Assembly: GCA_028286245.1 (NCBI GenBank)
Contig: JAQBRY010000002.1
Coordinates: forward strand, 268,779 to 332,778
Source of the DNA: Candidatus Saccharimonadota bacterium
GTDB lineage: Bacteria > Patescibacteriota > Saccharimonadia > Saccharimonadales > UBA4665
Reading direction: 5' to 3'
DNA: 64,000 bases
Both the position numbers and the translations under genes were made by a program. The notes beneath the pieces are model-generated. The model searched no databases. It saw only the letters and a program-made list of their open reading frames with translations, and had not been told where the DNA came from. This document shows, in pieces, positions 21,741-30,403 of the stretch (the first letter of the stretch is position 1; the number at the start of each line of letters is the position of its first letter).

Positions 21741-21807
21741 GAACAGCGCAAGGTAGGGCAGTGTGTTAATCTGTGCGCCGAGCTGGGCTCGGACTTATTG
21801 AGACTAC
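21741..21807. repeat. Island repeat D (partial; lacks tRNA part)
   Basis: GTTAATCTGTGCGCCGAGCT (21765-21784) is identical over 20 bases to 30221-30240 in repeat C. CAGCGCA just before it (21744-21750) and GACTAC after it also match the other copies. The 17-base tRNA-derived core is missing. It marks the probable left limit of the island downstream of the initiator tRNA. Confidence 0.65.
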
Positions 21808-22311
21808 TTATTGAGCTTGGGATAAAATTGCGTCGGCAATTTCAGCAGCTGTGCCATTCGCGCTGATTGGTATTCCACCATCTTCAACAAAAAGCTTCTG
21901 TTTTATCTCGTGGTTAGTGAGGATACGGTCAATCACTCCGGGTAGGTGATGTGACTGATGTTCGTGAGTCTCAAGTCTTGTTCGTAGCGTTTTAGCATCA
22001 ACTATGAGCACAAATACTTTATCAAAAAGGTCATAGAGATCAGCCTGATTTGAGACAACACCTCCAACAAAGACAGTATCATTAGTTGCTAGCAGATTTT
22101 TTAGCGCCTGCTCTTGCCAATTCCAGGCATATTTTGTCCAATCAACTCCCCCTTCTGGCCAGTCGATGACTTCACCTGTTTGCCTGTCTTGGAGCCTTGT
22201 TACATCTGGCAAATCATCGGTATTGAATGCCGTATAGCCCTGCTCCTGCAGAAACTTAATAAGAGTCGTTTTACCCGATCCTTGCCTGCCTGTTATAAGA
22301 TACTTTCCCAT
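21808..22311 (-). CDS. P-loop nucleotide kinase-like protein (AAA_18 type)
   Basis: This 167-aa protein opens with a Walker A loop ITGRQGSGKTT (residues 6-16). A FNTDDLPD segment reminiscent of adenylate/shikimate kinases and an adenine-binding strand FVLIVDAKTLRTRL follow. The substrate cannot be told. TATGAT stands exactly six bases before the ATG at 22311. It is the only recognisable gene besides a hypothetical one in the module between repeats D and A. Confidence 0.8.
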   Translation of the reverse strand: MGKYLITGRQGSGKTTLIKFLQEQGYTAFNTDDLPDVTRLQDRQTGEVIDWPEGGVDWTKYAWNWQEQALKNLLATNDTVFVGGVVSNQADLYDLFDKVFVLIVDAKTLRTRLETHEHQSHHLPGVIDRILTNHEIKQKLFVEDGGIPISANGTAAEIADAILSQAQ

Positions 22312-22387
22312 CAACACATCATACCAAATCGATTCAAAAGCCGGACAGAACTAATGAATTGATAGGGTTGTGACGGCTAACAAAATA

Positions 22388-22909
22388 TCAACCTCGTAAT
22401 GCATTAGTGTTATCCATAGCTCCTGCCTCGGTAGTGCTATTAATCACGCTCTCGAACCAGGTCATAACTACTCCCTCAACAGCCTCGCGTTTGTCATCAG
22501 GGAGCATGCCAAGCCGTACAAAACCCTCACCTACAGGCTCAACAATAGCACTGGCTCTCGATATGTAGCCTATGAGTTGTGCGTAAGCATCAGCATACTT
22601 TGGGTGGGCATCAGGGTGAGCTTGCTCATACGCATCGAAAGCCAAAGCCTCTACTAGGTCGTGTTCTACCCCCATTTCCCCCTTAGAGCCGAGTAACTGA
22701 TCCCTAAATAGACCGCTGGTTAGCGCAAAGCTGGGCGTAGACGGCCAATAATTTAGAGGCCCTGAAGGGGACATGGTGGGGGTAAAGTTGTCCCCTATAA
22801 CTTGAATGTATCCATTAGGGTCAAAGCTATCTTGGCTCAATATATCAGTAGCAAAGGGGGATATAGGATCAATGGTAGGAGATTTACCTCGGCTGATAGC
22901 GGGCATCAT
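22388..22909 (-). CDS. Hypothetical protein
   Basis: I do not recognise this 173-aa soluble protein. The first 60 residues are Pro/Ser/Thr-rich and the remainder is helical with a central GVEHDLVEALAFDAYEQAHP segment. The promoter fixes the start: -35 TTGACA, 17-base spacer, -10 TACTAT, then seven bases to the ATG at 22909. A longer frame opening 24 codons upstream runs through that promoter and is unlikely to be used. Confidence 0.6.
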   Translation of the reverse strand: MMPAISRGKSPTIDPISPFATDILSQDSFDPNGYIQVIGDNFTPTMSPSGPLNYWPSTPSFALTSGLFRDQLLGSKGEMGVEHDLVEALAFDAYEQAHPDAHPKYADAYAQLIGYISRASAIVEPVGEGFVRLGMLPDDKREAVEGVVMTWFESVINSTTEAGAMDNTNALRG

Positions 22910-22916
22910 ATGATGT

Positions 22917-22945
22917 ATAGTAGCATAAGTAATATAGTTTGTCAA
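22917..22945 (-). promoter_or_regulatory. Promoter of the 22388-22909 gene
   Basis: On the minus strand, consensus -35 TTGACA (22940-22945) and -10 TACTAT (22917-22922) are separated by 17 bases, with the ATG seven bases further on. The arrangement predicts a leaderless or one-base-leader mRNA. Confidence 0.85.
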
Positions 22946-22991
22946 TGCTATCCTTGCGGTTCCTGTATAAAGAATAGACAAATATATAGAT

Positions 22992-23020
22992 AAAAAACCT
23001 CTGTTTTAAACATAGAGGTT
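22992..23020 (-). terminator. Intrinsic terminator after repeat A
   Basis: Read on the minus strand, AACCTCT and AGAGGTT pair around an 11-base loop and are followed directly by TTTT. It would stop transcripts from the NYN/hydrolase operon after they pass repeat A. Confidence 0.8.
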
Positions 23021-23031
23021 ATAGTGCTTAT

Positions 23032-23129
23032 GGTTGCGGGACCAGGACAGCGCACGCTAATCTAGCCGCCCGCTGCGCTGGGGGCTGTGACTAACGACCG
23101 AACCGTTCGTATAGCCCTTATCCAGAACC
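23032..23129 (-). repeat. Island repeat A with 3' end of initiator tRNA
   Basis: Bases 23032-23048 are identical to the last 17 bases of the initiator tRNA gene (T-arm 3' half, acceptor strand, first two C of CCA), in the same orientation. The following 80 bases match repeat C with mismatches, including ACAGCGCAC, CTAATCT, GACTAACGACCGAAC, GTTCGTATAGCCC and CAGAACC. It does not encode a tRNA because the 5' half is missing. It looks like an attachment-site remnant. Confidence 0.8.
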
Positions 23130-23157
23130 AAAACTAGAACCTATCATTACTGATTTC

Positions 23158-23805
23158 TTAAGGTAGCTGCGATTGCGCAAAAGTAGAAATGATATCTCGG
23201 TCAGATAAGAAGTGAGCGACAAAACCTCCGGAATGACCAAATACTAAGGAGTGATGTTCCTCTACACCTTCTATACCCATACATTCAAGCGGGACTACTA
23301 AATCGGTAAGCTGGCTTAAAACGAGTAGCCTCATTTTTTCATCATCGGATAAGCTCGGTATGACTTCTTTTTCGGCATACATGACGCTGTCATAAAAACT
23401 TCGCGAGGGCCTGGGCGTATCTAGATGAGCCCGGTGATGCATAGAATTTCTATTGTTATAGTTACCGGCCCGCAGACGTCCATGCGCTATCACAGCACAC
23501 ACATTTTTGGTTTTGAGTTGACTGAACGCATTAAGAGCTAAGCTTCCGCCTGCACTAGAACCAATAATGGCCACACCGCCAAAATCATGCAACATTGTAT
23601 TCACCATTTGGTGTACAGCCTGGAGCTTATCTTCAAAGCTTTTTCCGTCATACCAGTTGATATGAGCATAGTGGATATCCAAACTTTTTCGTTTCCACCA
23701 CCAATGAACTATTTTATCTTTGAGAGTGGTAGTACCATCTCCCAGACCATTAATATATAAGAACCCGATCTCTTGTTTAGCTCTTGTCTGTTTTCGAGTC
23801 ATCAT
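23158..23805 (-). CDS. Alpha/beta hydrolase-like protein
   Basis: This 215-aa protein has a nucleophile elbow IIGSSAGGSLAL (about residues 82-93) and late candidates for the acid (LTDLVVPLE) and His (FGHSGGFVAH). An oxyanion-type GLGDG loop lies near residue 20. The closest type is a small lipase or esterase fold. Its start lies 29 bases inside the end of the upstream NYN-domain gene, so translation is coupled. The pairing with a NYN nuclease inside a genomic island is unusual. Confidence 0.75.
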   Translation of the reverse strand: MMTRKQTRAKQEIGFLYINGLGDGTTTLKDKIVHWWWKRKSLDIHYAHINWYDGKSFEDKLQAVHQMVNTMLHDFGGVAIIGSSAGGSLALNAFSQLKTKNVCAVIAHGRLRAGNYNNRNSMHHRAHLDTPRPSRSFYDSVMYAEKEVIPSLSDDEKMRLLVLSQLTDLVVPLECMGIEGVEEHHSLVFGHSGGFVAHFLSDRDIISTFAQSQLP

Positions 23806-24433
23806 TATCAACTAATTTAAGCTGCAGCTGGTTAGCATCATTAAAAGCATCTACTATTTCAGAGTCACGGATGATTTGAGTTTCACTAGCAGCTATAGAA
23901 AGTGCATTTGTTAATTTATCGCTAAAACCTACGTATACTACTTGCGTACCGTTTTCTTTAGCAGTAGTGATTGCTGGTAATAAATCAGTATCTGAGCTAA
24001 CTAAAATAATACGGTCAACCTCCCCCTTAAGCGAATCCACGACCGCATCTACAGCTAGTTTTACGTCTACACCTTTCTCCTGAAAGTGAAGACCTTGAGC
24101 ACCACACACTTTACATTTGTCTCCGTCACGGACTTTAAGTTTCCCTGAATCAATAAAAGCTATACTCTGCTTCGCCAGGCTGTTCTTAAGCCGTCGCTGA
24201 GAATCAATCATGACCCTCGACTTTTCTTCGATTTCCGGCGTATGCTTATGCTTCTTCAACTTAGTGCCGTAGTATCGGATTTCAACTCCCTCTTCTTTCA
24301 AAAGAGTTTCAAATAACTTACGCAGAGATATAGTGTGAAGTTCTTGTTTTTCAGCAATCAAGCCTGCCTCAATCAGCACATCAGCTGCTTTATAGAGAAA
24401 GTTCTGTCCATCTATATACACTACGGTCTTCAT
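23777..24433 (-). CDS. NYN domain (LabA/PIN-like) ribonuclease-like protein
   Basis: This 218-aa protein has the acidic metal-binding residues of NYN/DUF88 proteins: VVYIDGQNF (Asp8), KGVDVKLAVD (Asp123, Asp129) and LVSSDTDLLPAI (Asp148, Asp150). A Cys pair C107-x2-C110 suggests a half zinc finger. NYN proteins are RNA-cutting nucleases of the PIN fold. TATAAT lies nine bases before the ATG. The coupled downstream gene is an alpha/beta hydrolase. Confidence 0.88.
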   Translation of the reverse strand: MKTVVYIDGQNFLYKAADVLIEAGLIAEKQELHTISLRKLFETLLKEEGVEIRYYGTKLKKHKHTPEIEEKSRVMIDSQRRLKNSLAKQSIAFIDSGKLKVRDGDKCKVCGAQGLHFQEKGVDVKLAVDAVVDSLKGEVDRIILVSSDTDLLPAITTAKENGTQVVYVGFSDKLTNALSIAASETQIIRDSEIVDAFNDANQLQLKLVDNDDSKTDKS

Positions 24434-24451
24434 CGTCACCTCATTATAAAC

Positions 24452-24487
24452 TAAAGAACCTCGCCGGGTTTAAAAACCAAGGCGAGG
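24452..24487 (-). terminator. Probable terminator upstream of the NYN operon
   Basis: On the minus strand CCTCGCC and GGCGAGG pair around a 15-base loop and are followed by TTCTTT. It would end transcription coming from the 24717-25004 gene just before the NYN promoter. Confidence 0.6.
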
Positions 24488-24513
24488 CGCTGTACCCTTA
24501 ATACTACACTACT

Positions 24514-24531
24514 ATTGACATCACTGTCAAT
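24514..24531. promoter_or_regulatory. Perfect inverted repeat ATTGACA-N4-TGTCAAT
   Basis: The two seven-base arms are exact inverse copies and each holds a -35-like TTGACA on one strand. It lies in the 277-base gap between the NYN gene and the 24717-25004 gene and could be an operator. The remaining gap holds a longer imperfect hairpin at about 24672-24705 (TACTCTACC-type arms) and no gene I can support. Confidence 0.4.
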
Positions 24532-24716
24532 ACGTTTCAAAGATTTTATGCTTACTCTGTGGATAAAGCATAAGCCTAATAGGCTTGAAACAGGCTTGAT
24601 TTACTAATTTCTTGCTCGGGTCTGATTTGGAACCTTACCTTATCGGAGCTTAGTAGATGGGTAGAACTCAATAGAGATGAGCGTCTGTTGAGTTACTCTA
24701 CCTCTGCGGACTAGAA

Positions 24717-25004
24717 CTAGTAGGTAGTGCCGCCCATATTGACGTCCTCGAGGGTGACCCAGTCATTTGAGCTTGCAACAACCTCTAGCTGAGGACCAGA
24801 TATAAACACAGCATCACGAGGACCGTCATAATGAGAAGCCATTAAGTGCGCTTCGTCTAAAGCATTCAGTAAGTCCTCTGGCCGCCGCCGGCTAACCTGA
24901 GCCGTTACGTACTTTACTGCTGCTTTACCAGCATTCATATCCGCGACATGGAAGCCAGCCTCAGCTGCAACTGTCTGGATTCTCTCGTGACCTTGCTTAT
25001 CCAT
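24717..25004 (-). CDS. Hypothetical 95-aa protein
   Basis: This soluble 95-aa alpha/beta protein has no family I recognise. CAGGAG lies five bases before the ATG, and TAAAAT further upstream gives a leader of about 30 bases. It belongs to the island module between repeats A and B. Confidence 0.6.
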   Translation of the reverse strand: MDKQGHERIQTVAAEAGFHVADMNAGKAAVKYVTAQVSRRRPEDLLNALDEAHLMASHYDGPRDAVFISGPQLEVVASSNDWVTLEDVNMGGTTY

Positions 25005-25125
25005 AGAAACTCCTGGTTAAAAACTATTGAGTATTTTAACATTGTTTACTGTTTATTACAAGGCTTACCTCTGTCGTCGTGCCGGTACGAATGTATGGAA
25101 TTGTTAATAACACAATTCTGGCCGA

Positions 25126-25440
25126 TTAAGCTAATGTCTTATCAATCCAATCTCGTAATTCAACATTGATATCGTCTGGAATAGTAAACGTCATCATTGG
25201 CACGGTTTCGCTAGTAGTTTTGCGGACGTCTTCCATGACAGCGTCTTTATATTTATCGGTTGTGTAGCAGGTTATGGTGACATAATTCATGTCCTGAATC
25301 TTACCTTCCCATAAAAACCGTGCCGGAGCATGAATAAATTGTCCGGCAGTTGCGAGCTTTTGTTCTAAAAGCGAATTGAGAATTGTATCTGCCTGCTCTT
25401 GGTTCTCGGCGCTGATCTTTGCTTCGTAATAAACACTCAT
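25126..25440 (-). CDS. CutA1-like protein (divergent)
   Basis: This 104-aa protein follows the CutA1 pattern: N-terminal strand, helix QADTILNSLLEQKLATAGQ, then FLWEGKIQDMNYVTITCYTT, the VPMM segment near residue 80, and a final W-IDKTL helix. CutA1 proteins are trimeric and are linked loosely to divalent metal tolerance. Conservation is weak, so I treat the function as uncertain. TATAGT lies exactly six bases before the ATG. Confidence 0.75.
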   Translation of the reverse strand: MSVYYEAKISAENQEQADTILNSLLEQKLATAGQFIHAPARFLWEGKIQDMNYVTITCYTTDKYKDAVMEDVRKTTSETVPMMTFTIPDDINVELRDWIDKTLA

Positions 25441-25451
25441 GTCTTAACTAT

Positions 25452-25481
25452 AACAAAAAGGACAGGTTCTAACCTGTCCTA
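25452..25481 (-). terminator. Intrinsic terminator of the 25527-26353 operon
   Basis: On the minus strand AGGACAGGTT and AACCTGTCCT pair around a two-base loop and are followed by TTTTTGTT. It separates the GGCT-like operon from the leaderless cutA-like gene. Confidence 0.9.
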
Positions 25482-25526
25482 ATTAATCGAATTTGGTTGC
25501 ACAAGTACAGTCAAACTAGAACCAGC

Positions 25527-25808
25527 CTACTCGGCTCTTGTGCTCCAATCTGCACCATGCAGATTAGGGCACATTTCTACCTCACATCCGACACCTATCG
25601 TATCTGACCGTGCAATTACCTTTGCGTCGCCCATGACTTCTTGTAATGCGGTGGCGCCGCACTCTTTACCCATCCAGCACTTACTGCGTATTTGCGCCGC
25701 TTCTTGAGATGCCGCACCCAATGCTCCAGCAATTGCTTCGGTATTTATTTCTTCCCCTATAAAGGTAGCGAGAGAAATCTCTGTGCCCGGAATAAATTGG
25801 GAAGTCAT
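25527..25808 (-). CDS. Hypothetical Cys-containing 93-aa protein
   Basis: This 93-aa protein has four cysteines in two pairs (CWMGKEC at about residues 44-50 and CEVEMC at about 74-79), which could bind a metal. I recognise no family. Its ATG overlaps the stop codon of the GGCT-like gene, so the two are translationally coupled. Confidence 0.6.
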   Translation of the reverse strand: MTSQFIPGTEISLATFIGEEINTEAIAGALGAASQEAAQIRSKCWMGKECGATALQEVMGDAKVIARSDTIGVGCEVEMCPNLHGADWSTRAE

Positions 25809-26353
25809 TATTGCTCTAGTTGTTCTAAGTAGTCTGATCGGGCCTTTTCTGCAGTTTTAAACATGGCCGTAGGATTAGCTAGAAAAGTTTCGTAGCCCTC
25901 ACCCTCTACTACCCTGTCAATGTGTTGGTCGTTTGCAAAGCCTTCAGTTTCCGCTTGCAAAGTTGTTCCGTCCTCCAGTTCAACTGTAACGTTCATTCTG
26001 TCGTACCACCCAAACTCGATTAGTTCCCACTCGGCTACCAATGCTCTTTGCAGCGGCGTCAGTTCAAAAAGCACAGCACTAACGGTTGAACTTTGGCTGG
26101 GTCGGATTGCATATGTTTCAAAATTGCTTTGTTCACCCCATGCACTATTGATAATTTGCTTCGGTGAAAGCGCTACTGGGGCTGCGTCAGAAACATCATC
26201 AGTTATTTGGTCGTAACGCTGTACGCATAGTTCAACATCATGAATCGCTACGTTTCCAATTATCGTCGATACACCTCCAACAATAGCCCTTATCATTTCG
26301 GGGTCACGATTAGCGCCGTAGCCGGCATACAGAATATTTTCAGGGAGAGGCAT
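25808..26353 (-). CDS. Gamma-glutamylcyclotransferase-like protein (AIG2-like fold)
   Basis: This 181-aa protein begins MPLPENILYAGYGANRD, which matches the YGSN-type substrate loop at the N-terminus of GGCT-like proteins (here YGAN). A catalytic-type Glu may be the one in VAEWELIEFGWYDR. I start it at 26353 because a TATAATATAATAAT promoter ends just before this ATG; the frame opens 39 codons earlier and would run through repeat B. The substrate is unknown. Confidence 0.7.
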   Translation of the reverse strand: MPLPENILYAGYGANRDPEMIRAIVGGVSTIIGNVAIHDVELCVQRYDQITDDVSDAAPVALSPKQIINSAWGEQSNFETYAIRPSQSSTVSAVLFELTPLQRALVAEWELIEFGWYDRMNVTVELEDGTTLQAETEGFANDQHIDRVVEGEGYETFLANPTAMFKTAEKARSDYLEQLEQ

Positions 26354-26404
26354 AATTATTATATTATAGCATAAGTAATAAGATATAACAATGCTAGGTA
26401 TACA

Positions 26405-26434
26405 AACAAAAGACTCTGGCTCCGTAGCAGAGTT
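26405..26434 (-). terminator. Terminator-like hairpin beside repeat B
   Basis: On the minus strand ACTCTG and CAGAGT pair around a nine-base loop and are followed by CTTTTGTTTG. Repeat A has a hairpin in the same relative position (22992-23020), so hairpin plus repeat appears to be copied as one block. Confidence 0.6.
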
Positions 26435-26446
26435 AATGGTGCTTAT

Positions 26447-26500
26447 AATTGCGGAACCAGGACAGCGCACACTGCGCTGGCACGCAGGAATAAGACTACT
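26447..26500 (-). repeat. Island repeat B with degenerate tRNA 3' end
   Basis: AATTGCGGAACCAGGAC (26447-26463) differs from the tRNA-derived core in three of 17 positions and is followed by AGCGCAC as in repeats A and C. CTGCGCTGG then matches repeat A, giving the inverted repeat CAGCGCA / TGCGCTG. The right part of the unit is degraded. It lies between the GGCT-like and restriction-enzyme-like genes, and so marks a module border. Confidence 0.65.
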
Positions 26501-26534
26501 AGCTCAATTCATATCTTAAAGCTATACTTGAGGC

Positions 26535-27086
26535 ATGTCTGAAGATGCTAAACTCGCAAAAGATATCAAAACAATCAAGTACCACCTCGGCGAGGCTTAT
26601 GATTTTTATCGAAGCTTCATTTATAACAAAGAACACCAGTCGATATTAAAAGACCATGGCTTCCATTTTGCTGGCAGCGTTGCTTCTGTGAACTGGGAAG
26701 TTTTTGCTTCCATTTTGACCGGCGACAGAGGGAAAGAGGGTTATGGTTCCGATCTCATTAACCACGAAGTAAAGTCTAGCGTTGATGGTAGCAGCTTTGA
26801 ATACCAGTACCACTTAAATGCTGGCGAGATTAAACTGCAAGAAGATATGGAAGTTAACCATATTTTTATCTCGTATAGTAAAGACTACAAGGACGTTGAA
26901 GTTCGGTTGTTAGAGGGCAGCAAGCTAAAAGATACTTTTGAAAAATGGATGCCTGGATTAATCGAGAACTACGCGGGCGCAACTCCAAAGCAGCGGTACC
27001 GTAAGAGTGTTTCGTACGGATTCGTGAAAATTAACGGTATTCTAATCTTGAAAATCCAAAACGGGAACTTGGTTGACCGCGTTTAG
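26535..27086 (+). CDS. Candidate restriction endonuclease (PD-(D/E)XK type)
   Basis: This 183-aa protein contains GSDLINHEVKSS with D73, E78 and K80, matching the core D-x(n)-(E)-x-K of PD-(D/E)XK nucleases, placed after a helical N-terminus as in many type II enzymes. It is convergent with a cytosine-5 DNA methyltransferase gene, whose end it overlaps by 45 bases, which is the usual context of a cognate restriction enzyme. TATACT lies exactly six bases before the ATG. No recognition sequence can be predicted. Confidence 0.7.
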   Translation: MSEDAKLAKDIKTIKYHLGEAYDFYRSFIYNKEHQSILKDHGFHFAGSVASVNWEVFASILTGDRGKEGYGSDLINHEVKSSVDGSSFEYQYHLNAGEIKLQEDMEVNHIFISYSKDYKDVEVRLLEGSKLKDTFEKWMPGLIENYAGATPKQRYRKSVSYGFVKINGILILKIQNGNLVDRV

Positions 27087-28262
27087 CCCAGTCTCGACCA
27101 ATCCTTCAACTGGCACCTTACTAGCCTGCTCCAATAAAGTGTTGAAGTAATTTTCGCCTAGCCATTGCAGGACAGGAACGCAGACTGCGTCACCAAAACC
27201 AAATAACGCTTGATTGAGCGACAAGCTTGGATGGATAATAAAGTTTTTAGCACCCATTAACCGACCTGCCTCTACGCCATTGAACAAACGAGCATCAATC
27301 CTACCCTTGCCAGCGCGTACGACGATCTGTCTTGCGCTGCCACCTTTTGGAGTTCTCAAGCATCCAGCAATACCATCGTTTCGCAGCTCAACAGTAGATT
27401 GTCGTTTACCGTCACGTACACGCATTCGTCTAAAGCCAGCATAATATCGGTAGCTGGAGCTGTTCTTTTGGATTTCTAATATGTCACACTGCCGCTCATG
27501 TAGTTGGCTATAGAGAAAGTTTGTACGTTCCTCTGGCCACCACTCTTCATTTAAATCAATAATGTCAGCTACTACTTCGGTTCTAACCGGTAAGTTAGGT
27601 AGTCGGTGAAAGTACCAGTCTATGTCAGAGTGCTTGTTTATATATTCCAAAATCTTAGCAGGCCTGGCATCGGTACTTCGCAAATTATATTCTTGCATTA
27701 AATCCGAAGAATCAAAACTTTTTACCAATGAATTGTGCACGCCTATGATAAATATTCGGACACGACTTTGAGCTACAAAGTGAGCAGCGTTGACGCGCAA
27801 TAGGTCTACTCTGTACCCAAGAGCATTCAGTTCATCCAGCACTTCTCGCAAATCCATTCCACTATTTGATGTGAGTAGACCTTCGACATTCTCTAGCAGG
27901 ACATAATTTGGGCTAGCCTCTCCGTGCTTCTTCTTCATCTCTTTGAGAATTCTTGCAAACTGCCAGAACGCCTGTGACTCACCTTGATAAATACCCTTGC
28001 GGCGGCCAGCTAGTGATAGGTCGGTGCATGGAAATGAAGCGTGAGCTAGGGTAACATTTGGGACATTCTCACCCTTTTCCTCGGCTATGTCTTTCGTATG
28101 GAAGTGGTCAGGGCCAAAATTAGTAGTGTACTGTAACTCCTTAAGCTCATCATAGTCCAATGCATATGTCGTTTCCCAGCCAGCGTTATTTAGACCAAGA
28201 GTAACAAGACCTATTCCTGCGAAAAAGTCAGCGACAGTCTTTGTGTCAGTTCTAGTGCCCAT
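27042..28262 (-). CDS. DNA (cytosine-5-)-methyltransferase
   Basis: This 406-aa protein has the conserved C5-methyltransferase motifs in order: I DFFAGIG, IV SFPCTDLSLAG with the catalytic Cys (about residue 80), VI LLENVEG, VIII QSRVRIFIIG, and IX/X NQALFGFGDAVCVPVLQW. The region between VIII and IX is the target-recognition domain (about residues 180-320). It methylates cytosine in a specific site and should protect the chromosome from the convergent nuclease. The start at 28262 is the ATG after a TTG codon. The AIPR gene lies just upstream on the same strand. Confidence 0.95.
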   Translation of the reverse strand: MGTRTDTKTVADFFAGIGLVTLGLNNAGWETTYALDYDELKELQYTTNFGPDHFHTKDIAEEKGENVPNVTLAHASFPCTDLSLAGRRKGIYQGESQAFWQFARILKEMKKKHGEASPNYVLLENVEGLLTSNSGMDLREVLDELNALGYRVDLLRVNAAHFVAQSRVRIFIIGVHNSLVKSFDSSDLMQEYNLRSTDARPAKILEYINKHSDIDWYFHRLPNLPVRTEVVADIIDLNEEWWPEERTNFLYSQLHERQCDILEIQKNSSSYRYYAGFRRMRVRDGKRQSTVELRNDGIAGCLRTPKGGSARQIVVRAGKGRIDARLFNGVEAGRLMGAKNFIIHPSLSLNQALFGFGDAVCVPVLQWLGENYFNTLLEQASKVPVEGLVETGLNAVNQVPVLDFQD

Positions 28263-28327
28263 CAATCGTTACCCCAGCTTTAGTATTAGGTTCATTATAC
28301 CCCGAATAGGCACCGCCTTGCAGTAGT

Positions 28328-30028
28328 CTAGCTACTATATCTCTGCTGCAGTATATATTCGGTAAACTCTCGCGACTTCGCTATTCGATCGTAAGTGTAC
28401 TCGGGATGTTCGGCCGAATACACTTCGAGGTATCCTCTTAGTTCATCGATCAAACCATTTATTGGATTCGTATCGATGCCATTCTCGTAGTGTGCAGTAA
28501 GTTGCGATGGGTTACGTACCTGGGCACCAATCAAGTTCTCTGCAGTCATCATAGATAAATGAAAGCGCATGTTCGATTTGAAAAACTGGTCTTCGCTTGA
28601 TGCTCTAAGATGCGCATCAACCGCCTTTTGCAGTTTCGCCATCCATAAGTAGCCCGGCAAAGAAGCTCCGCGGCTAAATATTTCATCGTACTTCATTTCA
28701 TCAGCAATTAGTGTTGACGGTCGAGCACGCGCTGCATCAGGATTACTAAATCCGATAGATGAAACAGCTTGTGCAAGGTACGGAATGGTAATGATTTTTG
28801 CAGCAGGCTTGCCCTGGTTTTTATAATAGTTCTTTCGGCGATCGTAATAGTATGCCTTCGATTCAAAGAAAACTTCTATGTCTTTCTGCCACGGGTCGGT
28901 AGCTCGCATCGCAAAAGTTGGAAGTGGATTCTGTTGGTTGGTCGCAAGAATGATCTTGTTTCGAATCACATCATCGTCCGTTTTGATAACTCTAACGAGA
29001 ATCACTCTTGGATCATCTTCGCCCAGTTCAATGTCTTTGAAATGCTCATAAATTGCTGTAGAAGTTTGCAAGCCATTCACAATTTGGACATCTTTTAGTG
29101 TTAATATTTCGCCAGTTATTGAAGTCTCCGTGCACAGTATGGTCACGCCATTGTTCAGCCACCAAAAATCTGGATCATCAGGGGTGTAACCACTTCGTAA
29201 ACTTTCCCTGATTGCTTCGTTGACCTTTGTCGTACCCTGATAGTCACGGACATTTGCCTCGAAAGCTAATCGGCGTATTTTTTTTGCATCATCCGTTAAG
29301 AACTTTGCATACTTGTTGAGACTAACCAGTACAAGGTGACTACTCTGTCTTGCTACTGAGTGAATGGTCTTAAACTCTAAGGCTAATGTTTCACTAGGCA
29401 CCTTAGATGCTAGCTCCTTAAGTTCTTTCGCGCCGTTGAACTGAAAGTCATTGTGGCTTCCCGTTAGGGTCGCGGCTATTAGCTCCGTTAGCGTTTCCGA
29501 TTTGCTTACAACTCTTGTGTTTATGTTATCTGTCGAACCTTTACTGGCGTAAACCACATGTACCTTCACAATAGGAAATTTGTCAGCAGTGTTTTGTAAT
29601 AGGTCACGGAATATATTAATTCGTTGTATAAGTTCGGCAGAATACATAGTGGCATCTATCTCTACAGCAAGATTGAGCAACTGAGGAACGCTAACAATAA
29701 TCTTCCCGATTGGGTCTTCACCAAAAGCAGCTTCGGTCTTGCTCTGTATAAGGTATAGATCCAGTGCATAGCCTCGCGCCAATGCTCCAGGATTGAAATC
29801 ATCCTCAACCAATGACTCGTTGGCAAATGTGTAGACCGAGTCAATTCCCCCGTCACCACTGCCATCCGTGATACCAGCAAGGACCTGATCGGCTGTCAGG
29901 TCATAATTCTTCAAAATCTGGCTGGCAGAGAAATACTCAAACAGCTCACTGTCACTCAGTGATGTTGGTGCCTTTGACGACTCTGATACCAGTAGTCGTT
30001 CAAGCAATACTAGGTCATTACTAGGCAT
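28328..30028 (-). CDS. AIPR family protein with N-terminal PD-(D/E)XK-like nuclease motif
   Basis: This 566-aa protein has the AIPR (abortive infection phage resistance) core: WWLNNGVTILC, QIVNGLQTSTAIYEHF and ATNQQNPLPTFAMRATD, about residues 290-400. Its N-terminus carries SGDGGIDSV (Asp63) and, after a strand, LIQSK (Gln95, Lys97), the D...QxK arrangement of a PD-(D/E)XK nuclease. GGAG lies about ten bases before the ATG. It is co-directional with the methyltransferase gene and in the same module as a candidate restriction enzyme, so a defence role is likely; the mechanism is unproven. Confidence 0.9.
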   Translation of the reverse strand: MPSNDLVLLERLLVSESSKAPTSLSDSELFEYFSASQILKNYDLTADQVLAGITDGSGDGGIDSVYTFANESLVEDDFNPGALARGYALDLYLIQSKTEAAFGEDPIGKIIVSVPQLLNLAVEIDATMYSAELIQRINIFRDLLQNTADKFPIVKVHVVYASKGSTDNINTRVVSKSETLTELIAATLTGSHNDFQFNGAKELKELASKVPSETLALEFKTIHSVARQSSHLVLVSLNKYAKFLTDDAKKIRRLAFEANVRDYQGTTKVNEAIRESLRSGYTPDDPDFWWLNNGVTILCTETSITGEILTLKDVQIVNGLQTSTAIYEHFKDIELGEDDPRVILVRVIKTDDDVIRNKIILATNQQNPLPTFAMRATDPWQKDIEVFFESKAYYYDRRKNYYKNQGKPAAKIITIPYLAQAVSSIGFSNPDAARARPSTLIADEMKYDEIFSRGASLPGYLWMAKLQKAVDAHLRASSEDQFFKSNMRFHLSMMTAENLIGAQVRNPSQLTAHYENGIDTNPINGLIDELRGYLEVYSAEHPEYTYDRIAKSREFTEYILQQRYSS

Positions 30029-30196
30029 AAGTCATAATCTCCTGTTGAAATTATCCCCGTATACGCTGTTCGTTACAAGGCCTAGACATTATTTTATGGA
30101 ATTAATTTATATAGGTGGTCATTGGGCTTAGGAACAATACTCGCGGGTGGGCACGTAGTGACTAGAGAAACCCTTCAATGGCATAAAGCATCATTT

Positions 30197-30293
30197 GGTT
30201 GCGGGACCAGGACAGCGCACGTTAATCTGTGCGCCGAGCTTCGCCGGGCAGCAGACTAACGACCGAACGTTCGTATAGCCCCAGTTCAGAACC
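30197..30293 (-). repeat. Island repeat C with 3' end of initiator tRNA
   Basis: Bases 30197-30213 repeat the last 17 bases of the initiator tRNA gene, which lies 117 bases away in the same orientation. The next 80 bases match repeat A and partly D. GCGCAC (30214-30219) and GTGCGC form an inverted repeat, and CGAACGTTCG is a perfect palindrome near 30264-30273. It borders the restriction-modification module on the tRNA side. Confidence 0.8.
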
Positions 30294-30328
30294 AAGAAAA
30301 AAGGACCACTTTCGTGATCCTTTTTTCT
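30294..30328 (-). terminator. Intrinsic terminator of the initiator tRNA gene
   Basis: On the minus strand a near-perfect stem of about 16 bases (AAGAAAAAAGGA... with ...TCCTTTTTTCTT) and a GAAA-type loop follows the encoded CCA directly. The descending strand contains the T-tract. Confidence 0.9.
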
Positions 30329-30403
30329 TGGTTGCGGGACCAGGACTCGAACCTGGGACCTCGTGGTTATGAGCCACGCGAGCTGCCGCTGCTCCATCCC
30401 GCG
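30329..30403 (-). tRNA. Initiator tRNA-fMet (CAT anticodon)
   Basis: The 75-base gene folds as a full cloverleaf with CCA encoded. Initiator features are present: the unpaired C1/A72, the A11 with T24 pair in the D-stem, and a GG/CC pair below the CTCATAA loop (the third G-C pair of the classical GGG/CCC is T-A here). It is transcribed leftward. Its last 17 bases are the sequence repeated at 30197, 26447 and 23032. Confidence 0.95.

Follow-up and report, generated by a model that had tools for sequence, protein, structure and literature searches.

The question raised by the 64,000-nt stretch of contig JAQBRY010000002.1 analyzed here (hereafter the window; assembly GCA_028286245.1, positions 268,779 to 332,778) is how displaced copies of the 3′ end of an initiator tRNA (tRNA-fMet) gene came to stand between functionally distinct groups of genes. 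The lineage is Candidatus Saccharibacteria, tiny parasitic bacteria with genomes of about 1 Mb, for which, to our knowledge, few mobile elements have been described. The initial annotation of the window had explained the copies as the marks of integrative elements that use the tRNA 3′ end as attachment site. The observations presented below suggest, with a rough probability of 0.55, that small mobile gene cassettes with a folded end-site form an array here, which is anchored at the tRNA gene, and that a trans-acting enzyme moves them.

The 17-base end of the tRNA-fMet gene (GGTTGCGGGACCAGGAC) is found exactly at 30330, 30197 and 23032 and with three mismatches at 26447, which confirms the copies reported initially. 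Only 0.05 copies are expected in shuffled sequences and none of 100 shuffles reached four, so that chance is excluded. The 22-mer TTGCGGGACCAGGACAGCGCAC occurs in the window solely at 23034, 26449 and 30199 and is absent from shuffles; these three places are also the only ones in the entire 1.13 Mb genome (G000; other G and L numbers denote genomes and loci of relatives). The repeat is confined to the tRNA-fMet locus; a spread over many unrelated places would have spoken against integration at the tRNA. The partial unit proposed at 21741 is borne out by a 20-bp identity (GTTAATCTGTGCGCCGAGCT) between 21765–21784 and 30221–30240, located in units A and D, respectively. Read along the tRNA strand, the tRNA-fMet gene is followed by a hairpin (H1), a folded part of about 75 nt, a tRNA end and module 1, then by a degenerate unit with tRNA end, module 2, a unit with tRNA end, module 3 and a decayed unit, meaning that each cargo block is followed by a unit (Table 1). 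Unit D, directly behind the tRNA gene, represents an empty cassette, and the same arrangement was found in about 14 other genomes. The borders fall between the modules as first described, the first comprising an AIPR-family protein, a C5-methylase and an open reading frame (ORF), the second GGCT-like, CutA, NYN and hydrolase proteins, and the third an unknown and a kinase-like protein. The PADLOC AbiU model is matched by the AIPR protein from end to end, which makes module 1 a probable defence cassette; the ORF convergent with the methylase is, only by its position, a candidate restriction enzyme.

The initial integration model needs to be corrected in that the repeats are not plain attachment-site remnants but the tips of a structured, covarying unit, here termed type I. 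In this unit, the terminator hairpin H1 is followed, in this order, by the tRNA 3′ half in inverted copy, the sequence GGTTCG, a conserved hairpin (H3) and the tRNA tail, which extends from T-loop position ~59/60 to the CCA and measures about 17 bp. In an alignment of 17 H1 hairpins, 96.8% of the cells are paired, 47 double changes were counted compared to 13 after shuffling, and 11 of the 20 pairs changed on both sides. In H3, the flanks are kept and the stem varies by compensation. An Rfam search of the units returned only tRNA and below-threshold chance hairpin matches, and no such family. A test for pairing of H1 with the tRNA-specific bases beyond the CCA gave no support for it (3.18 vs. 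3.06 pairs, within the range of shuffles).

For comparison, approximately 80 tRNA-fMet loci and a family set of 93 genomes were used, all of them assemblies or metagenome-assembled genomes (MAGs) of different species, and homologous cassettes were compared across species. Relatives with a unit include Candidatus Saccharibacteria MAGs, and units were also found behind tRNA-fMet in other families of the order. The 22-mer is present in 11 of the 93 family genomes, at each place on the contig of tRNA-fMet and within about 10 kb of it. Copies of a genome's own 16-base tail lie downstream in the same orientation (34 in 780 kb, compared to 8 weak ones on the other strand), and a displaced own tail with at most one mismatch was detected at 21 of 75 tRNA-fMet loci vs. 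none of 35 other tRNAs of the same loci. Copies of the kind seen in the window bear the host's own tail variant, such as TCCTGTCCCC, which occurs four times in G085; these four exact copies make the term "fossils" used initially too weak for this genome. Around tRNA-fMet, the upstream gene is conserved, whereas nearly every genome has a different content downstream. Coding sequence makes up 65% of the arrays, yet only one of 39 sites (28 loci) is located within an ORF of ≥100 aa.

The arrangement is not special to the initiator tRNA, as had been assumed, because a unit with tRNA-matched ends is found behind many other tRNA genes. A covariance model (R1) was built from nine tRNA-fMet units and run over the 93 genomes; as it represents a single subtype and its E-values are rough, the resulting counts are lower bounds. 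Units were detected in 34 of the 93 genomes, with about 30 in the sister species G085, around ten in several others and five elsewhere in the genome of the window. Among 53 units examined (nearly all listed for G085, G000, G021 and G079 and some others), 48 are preceded on their own strand by a tRNA gene at a distance of no more than 1.5 kb, which for 44 of them is no more than 250 nt. The tRNAs concerned include Asn, Tyr, Ser, Val, Leu, Pro, Asp, Arg and Trp, and furthermore Ala, Glu, Gln, His, Lys, Phe, Thr and Met. The unit end matches the tail of its own tRNA at 11.4 of 15 bases, compared to 7.7 for other tRNAs, and none of 2000 shuffles reached the value for the own tRNA. The inverted copy of the own tRNA 3′ half between H1 and H3 scores 11.6 vs. 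7.9, with no shuffle above 8.9. The direct copy has a sharp left edge 17–18 bases from the tRNA end, at the last bases of the T-loop, and becomes weaker towards the CCA; since seeds were picked for a match, this edge is its informative part. Sampled genome parts were also surveyed, without use of the model, for own tails of 10 bases or more displaced by up to 700 nt; 6 of 16 tRNAs of the window's genome (mostly contig C4, taken end to end) were positive vs. 1.7% with other tails. For G085, 21 of 34 tRNAs were positive vs. 1.0%, the former being an upper estimate because stretches were picked around units. Upstream and reverse-strand controls were almost empty. Inheritance of units per tRNA across species found no support, as units at the same tRNA are 0.46–0.54 identical, compared to 0.52 at different ones (three comparisons). 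The fold-back part, which copies both strands of the 3′ half of its target, suggests that the unit imitates the target.

Loaded units are likewise found behind several tRNAs. In the window's genome, a gene for a 175-aa protein lies between two units behind tRNA-Gln(TTG), and in G085 small ORFs lie between two units behind tRNA-Asn. Behind tRNA-His of G079, two almost identical units flank a single-gene cassette, which encodes a kinase-like protein sharing 61% identity with the product of the last cassette gene of the window. In both kinase cassettes, a unit follows within approximately 70 nt of the stop codon. The cassettes are about 0.1–5 kb long, contain no integrase, and carry defence, toxin-antitoxin and unfamiliar genes; 18 of 23 ORFs of type I cargo are oriented along the tRNA. 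In relatives, bordered segments have been gained or lost, and in other genera cassettes with the same 3′ border occupy differing array positions. Insertion at the tRNA 3′ end, as originally proposed, is partly supported by these observations and by the fact that the modules are bordered by displaced tails, lie downstream of the tRNA in its orientation and occur at tRNA loci only.

In other genera, a second kind of site (type II) was found, which consists of a 70-nt left arm, a core of about 25 bp and a conserved noncoding leader of about 240 bp after each core. The leader contains repeated GTTCCATGACCGG-like (GTTCCA-ACCGG) motifs and looks like an attP arm; little covariation was seen when it was considered as an RNA, and it resembles protein-binding repeats more. 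All type II leaders are on tRNA-fMet contigs, with the exception of two genomes in which no tRNA-fMet was detected. A PIN-antitoxin cassette has the same type II end site in six genomes at differing distances from the tRNA. In one genus, the distance between the tRNA and the onset of shared downstream DNA is 0.23, 0.91 or 1.74 kb; a decayed type II left arm with its core lies at the end of the 0.91-kb insert. In the window, module 3 opens with a leader (Table 1) that is also present in modules of other genera (L026, L051, L071).

Table 1. Features of the tRNA-fMet array in the window and loci with type II arrays.
Feature	Position	Strand	Evidence
tRNA-fMet gene, anchor of the array	30329..30403	-	ARAGORN; Rfam
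H1, 20-bp hairpin, bidirectional terminator-like, with the AACCA end of the tRNA inside the stem	30290..30333	-	covariation
Body of unit D, fold-back part and apical hairpin	30214..30289	-	folding
Copy D, exact displaced tRNA 3′ end	30197..30213	-	tail match
Module 1, AIPR-family protein	28328..30028	-	PADLOC AbiU match, E 2e-172
Module 1, C5-cytosine DNA methyltransferase	27042..28265	-	
Module 1, 183-aa ORF, convergent with the methylase	26535..27086	+	no family match
Unit C, degenerate, ending in a tRNA 3′ copy (26447-26463, 3 mismatches)	26447..26530	-	
Module 2, GGCT-like, 93 aa, CutA1, 95 aa, NYN, alpha/beta hydrolase	23158..26350	-	
Unit B with exact displaced tRNA 3′ copy (23032-23048)	23032..23131	-	model R1 match 23031-23104
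Start of module 3, leader TAAGCACTAT..ACCTCT..AACAGAGGTTTTT	22990..23031	-	sequence comparison
Module 3, 197-aa protein without recognised family	22388..22981	-	
Module 3, P-loop kinase-like protein	21808..22317	-	61% identical to tRNA-His cassette gene of G079
Unit A, decayed, just past the kinase stop codon	21741..21795	-	20-bp exact match
Type II arrays	L034, L037, L040, L045, L050, L068-L071, L084		leader 74-310 nt after tRNA start and after displaced cores

Taken together, the tRNA-matched folded units and the stacked cassettes point to an undescribed, integron-like way of gene collection at tRNA genes. A recombinase acting in trans would insert DNA at the boundary of T-loop and T-stem of a tRNA gene, leaving the tRNA complete and pushing the old tail downstream, and repeated use of the first site, or of the displaced tail, would stack the cassettes. 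The unit may work like the attC site of integrons, which folds from a single DNA strand, and the tRNA gene would then take the place of attI. Similar to integrons, the cassettes are short, a structured and sequence-variable site is located at their 3′ end, type I cargo is mostly in one orientation, and toxin-antitoxin and defence genes are carried. In contrast to integrons, tRNA genes are found instead of attI, and the units have no RYYYAAC...GTTRRRY ends; they read GTTAGTC...GATTAAC, which is the opposite order, and their ends are set by the tRNA. More tentatively, and with somewhat less than even odds, it may be proposed that one family of folded units targets nearly any tRNA gene, uses the inverted and direct copies of the 3′ half as address, is served by a recombinase in trans and loads cassettes, which would make it a new class of gene capture.

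What the data establish is the architecture, the association with tRNA genes, the covariation and the movement of genes, whereas present-day mobility, strandedness and the enzyme are inferred. The identity of the enzyme is the least certain part of this proposal. The window is devoid of a tyrosine integrase, as had been stated, and a check of the genome for its recombinase revealed a single tyrosine recombinase, an Xer-like protein encoded on contig C3. As no classical integrase was found, the designation "integrative elements" is unproven in its usual sense. Nearly all genomes of relatives have one Xer as their only tyrosine recombinase, and this also applies to G085, which is 98% complete and has the most units. 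The Xer of the window's genome passes the NCBIfam XerA-type cut-off and stays below the integron-integrase cut-offs, and no PF00589 matches lie near the tRNA-fMet places of the family genomes. Given that no dedicated integrase was found, this single Xer may be the enzyme. The case for a serine recombinase in a general role is weakened by its absence from G085, where no match was obtained, and from G073, G079 and G014; CcrB-like serine recombinases are present in some relatives without link to the units. Searches of viral, phage and plasmid collections yielded no unit or related element. Seven viral contigs matched the 17-base unit motif, by our own estimate about the chance number for a collection of this size, and were rejected, as they have no tRNA nearby and match the model only in short parts.

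Several observations weigh against the array of trans-mobilized cassettes. No excised or circular form was found in the assemblies and MAGs, no recombinase is linked to the sites and nothing connects Xer with the unit. The Saccharibacterial dif site was not found; the search for the canonical dif sequence gave matches in the reversed control, too. Neither the canonical attC boxes (RYYYAAC/GTTRRRY) nor an integron integrase (intI) beside the array could be detected, and the match of a single unit family to many tRNAs is not readily accounted for by a site-specific recombinase. Furthermore, type II genes show no bias towards the tRNA strand (7 same, 12 opposite), which weakens an integron reading of all arrays.

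Of the alternatives, a duplicating transposition has to be taken most seriously, since it explains the tRNA-matched tails directly, although we regard it as rather unlikely. Here, another integrase, for instance a casposase or Cas1-like enzyme, would insert at the tRNA 3′ end and duplicate about 17 bp, with the units being miniature elements moved in trans. This would account at once for the own-tRNA tail on every unit. It is in line with the fact that casposons also insert at tRNA 3′ ends with short duplications of 14–15 bp (PMC6977970); a duplication of about 17 bp is found here, which recombination fits as well. Unlike in casposons, the unit is structured, terminal inverted repeats were not seen by eye in the inserts, and no Cas1 or PolB was recognised in the elements, albeit without a search aimed at Cas1. 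Transposition alone leaves unexplained why the unit also contains the tRNA 3′ half in inverted form.

It is improbable that the modules are integrase-less remnants of larger islands, whose tyrosine or CcrB/DsiB-like serine integrase was lost or is encoded elsewhere. Such remnants would resemble cis-mobilizable elements (CIMEs; term as in PMC3146451), with which the cassettes share att-bordered cargo without own recombinase and stacking by accretion. Precedent is provided by the ssrA islands of Dehalococcoides, which are arranged in tandem, have a 20-bp repeat of the ssrA 3′ end and a serine integrase inserting at the T-loop, and of which many have no integration module (PMC3146451). The likeness comprises the tandem arrangement, the repeated 3′ end of an RNA gene, the T-loop insertion and the many islands without integrase. 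However, the islands of Dehalococcoides are bordered by one gene and many have the CcrB-like DsiB, whereas here many tRNAs are used and no integrase is present in any cassette. A CcrB-like gene near tRNA-fMet in G004 (L040), with a similar one in G052, would fit remnants. Against them stand the lack of a serine recombinase in G085, the genome richest in units, the absence of tRNA sites bordering the CcrB-like gene, and the use of one unit family at many tRNAs. In addition, no integrative and conjugative or integrative and mobilizable element (ICE/IME) with a recombinase and the same att site was found, and the viral, phage and plasmid collections contained no related element.

Even less probable is a host element, namely a structured RNA or DNA signal behind tRNAs (for termination, processing or as decoy) whose similarity to the tRNA is maintained by gene conversion, with the genes arriving by ordinary recombination. 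The strong covariation and the units beside many tRNAs of G085 would be expected for such a signal. Its presence in only 34 of 93 genomes with one to ~30 copies each, the location of units past a terminator-like hairpin, the tandem and gene-bearing copies, the occurrence of one gene cassette at different tRNAs and the lack of an Rfam family all argue against it. Finally, RecA-dependent exchange of repeat-flanked blocks, with DNA taken up by transformation and without a site-specific enzyme, is highly improbable, since, although the long repeated type II leaders and the near-identical units within G085 and within G079 could serve as homology, RecA does not act efficiently on repeats as short as 17 bp and the first arrival of a unit with matching tail at a new tRNA is left unexplained.

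The cassette arrays resemble, to a certain degree, the additive flexible islands of streamlined genomes. The parts of the literature available to us describe small cassettes at tRNA genes with direct repeats of the tRNA end in the additive islands of 'Ca. Actinomarinales' (PMC7771536) and a repeated last 20 bp of tRNA-Lys in the island fGI-2 of Methylophilaceae (PMC10872708). As in these accounts, so far as they extend, cassettes are added at tRNA genes of small, streamlined genomes, content varies between relatives at a fixed tRNA, and the cassette borders are marked by the tRNA 3′ end in direct repeat. In contrast, a folded unit with an inverted tRNA copy is not mentioned in these parts, and here one unit family, empty or loaded, serves many tRNAs. 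No report of such tRNA-anchored cassettes in Saccharibacteria was found in the openly accessible literature. Since insertions at many tRNA genes are marked by the unit, it offers a direct handle on gene flow in Saccharibacteria and bears on how they acquire defence and toxin-antitoxin genes. If tRNA-matched fold-back copies do address the target, this would be a new principle of target choice, and if a new class of gene capture is indeed present, every tRNA gene would be an integron-like attachment site. The cassette reading predicts that excised circles and empty tRNA alleles exist and that one enzyme acts in trans.

Some further observations were made on the way. CcrB-like genes (frames of 429–432 aa) lie a few kb downstream of tRNA-fMet in G004 (L040:3370-4644) and G052 (C27:65610) and share no flanks; they are noteworthy because the ssrA islands of Dehalococcoides use such an enzyme (PMC3146451). 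A resolvase-like frame of the window's genome (G000:C2:76108-76539) has four in-frame TAG codons and is either a pseudogene or part of an element reading TAG as sense. Four MAGs have two tRNA-fMet contigs each (G022 C10/C30, G023 C47/C61, G009 C32/C49, G048 C25/C31), which reflects either two copies of the tRNA or a mixture of strains at a variable locus. The motif AC[CT][CT]CTGTT is found up to 120 nt upstream of tRNA-fMet, in the promoter spacer, in 48 of 78 loci and recurs 0–300 nt downstream in leaders or terminators. An extra structured insert of about 110 nt (AGCTGAGCGGTTAGCGAAGATATATGCC..CCTGGCGAGAAGCTATAAC), which has no Rfam match, breaks H3 in the G085 units at Leu(cag), Leu(gag), Ser(gga) and Ala(ggc). 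A similar insert is located in the anticodon loop of an extra tRNA-fMet copy of G020 (L033), and it is perhaps a second mobile or intron-like element.

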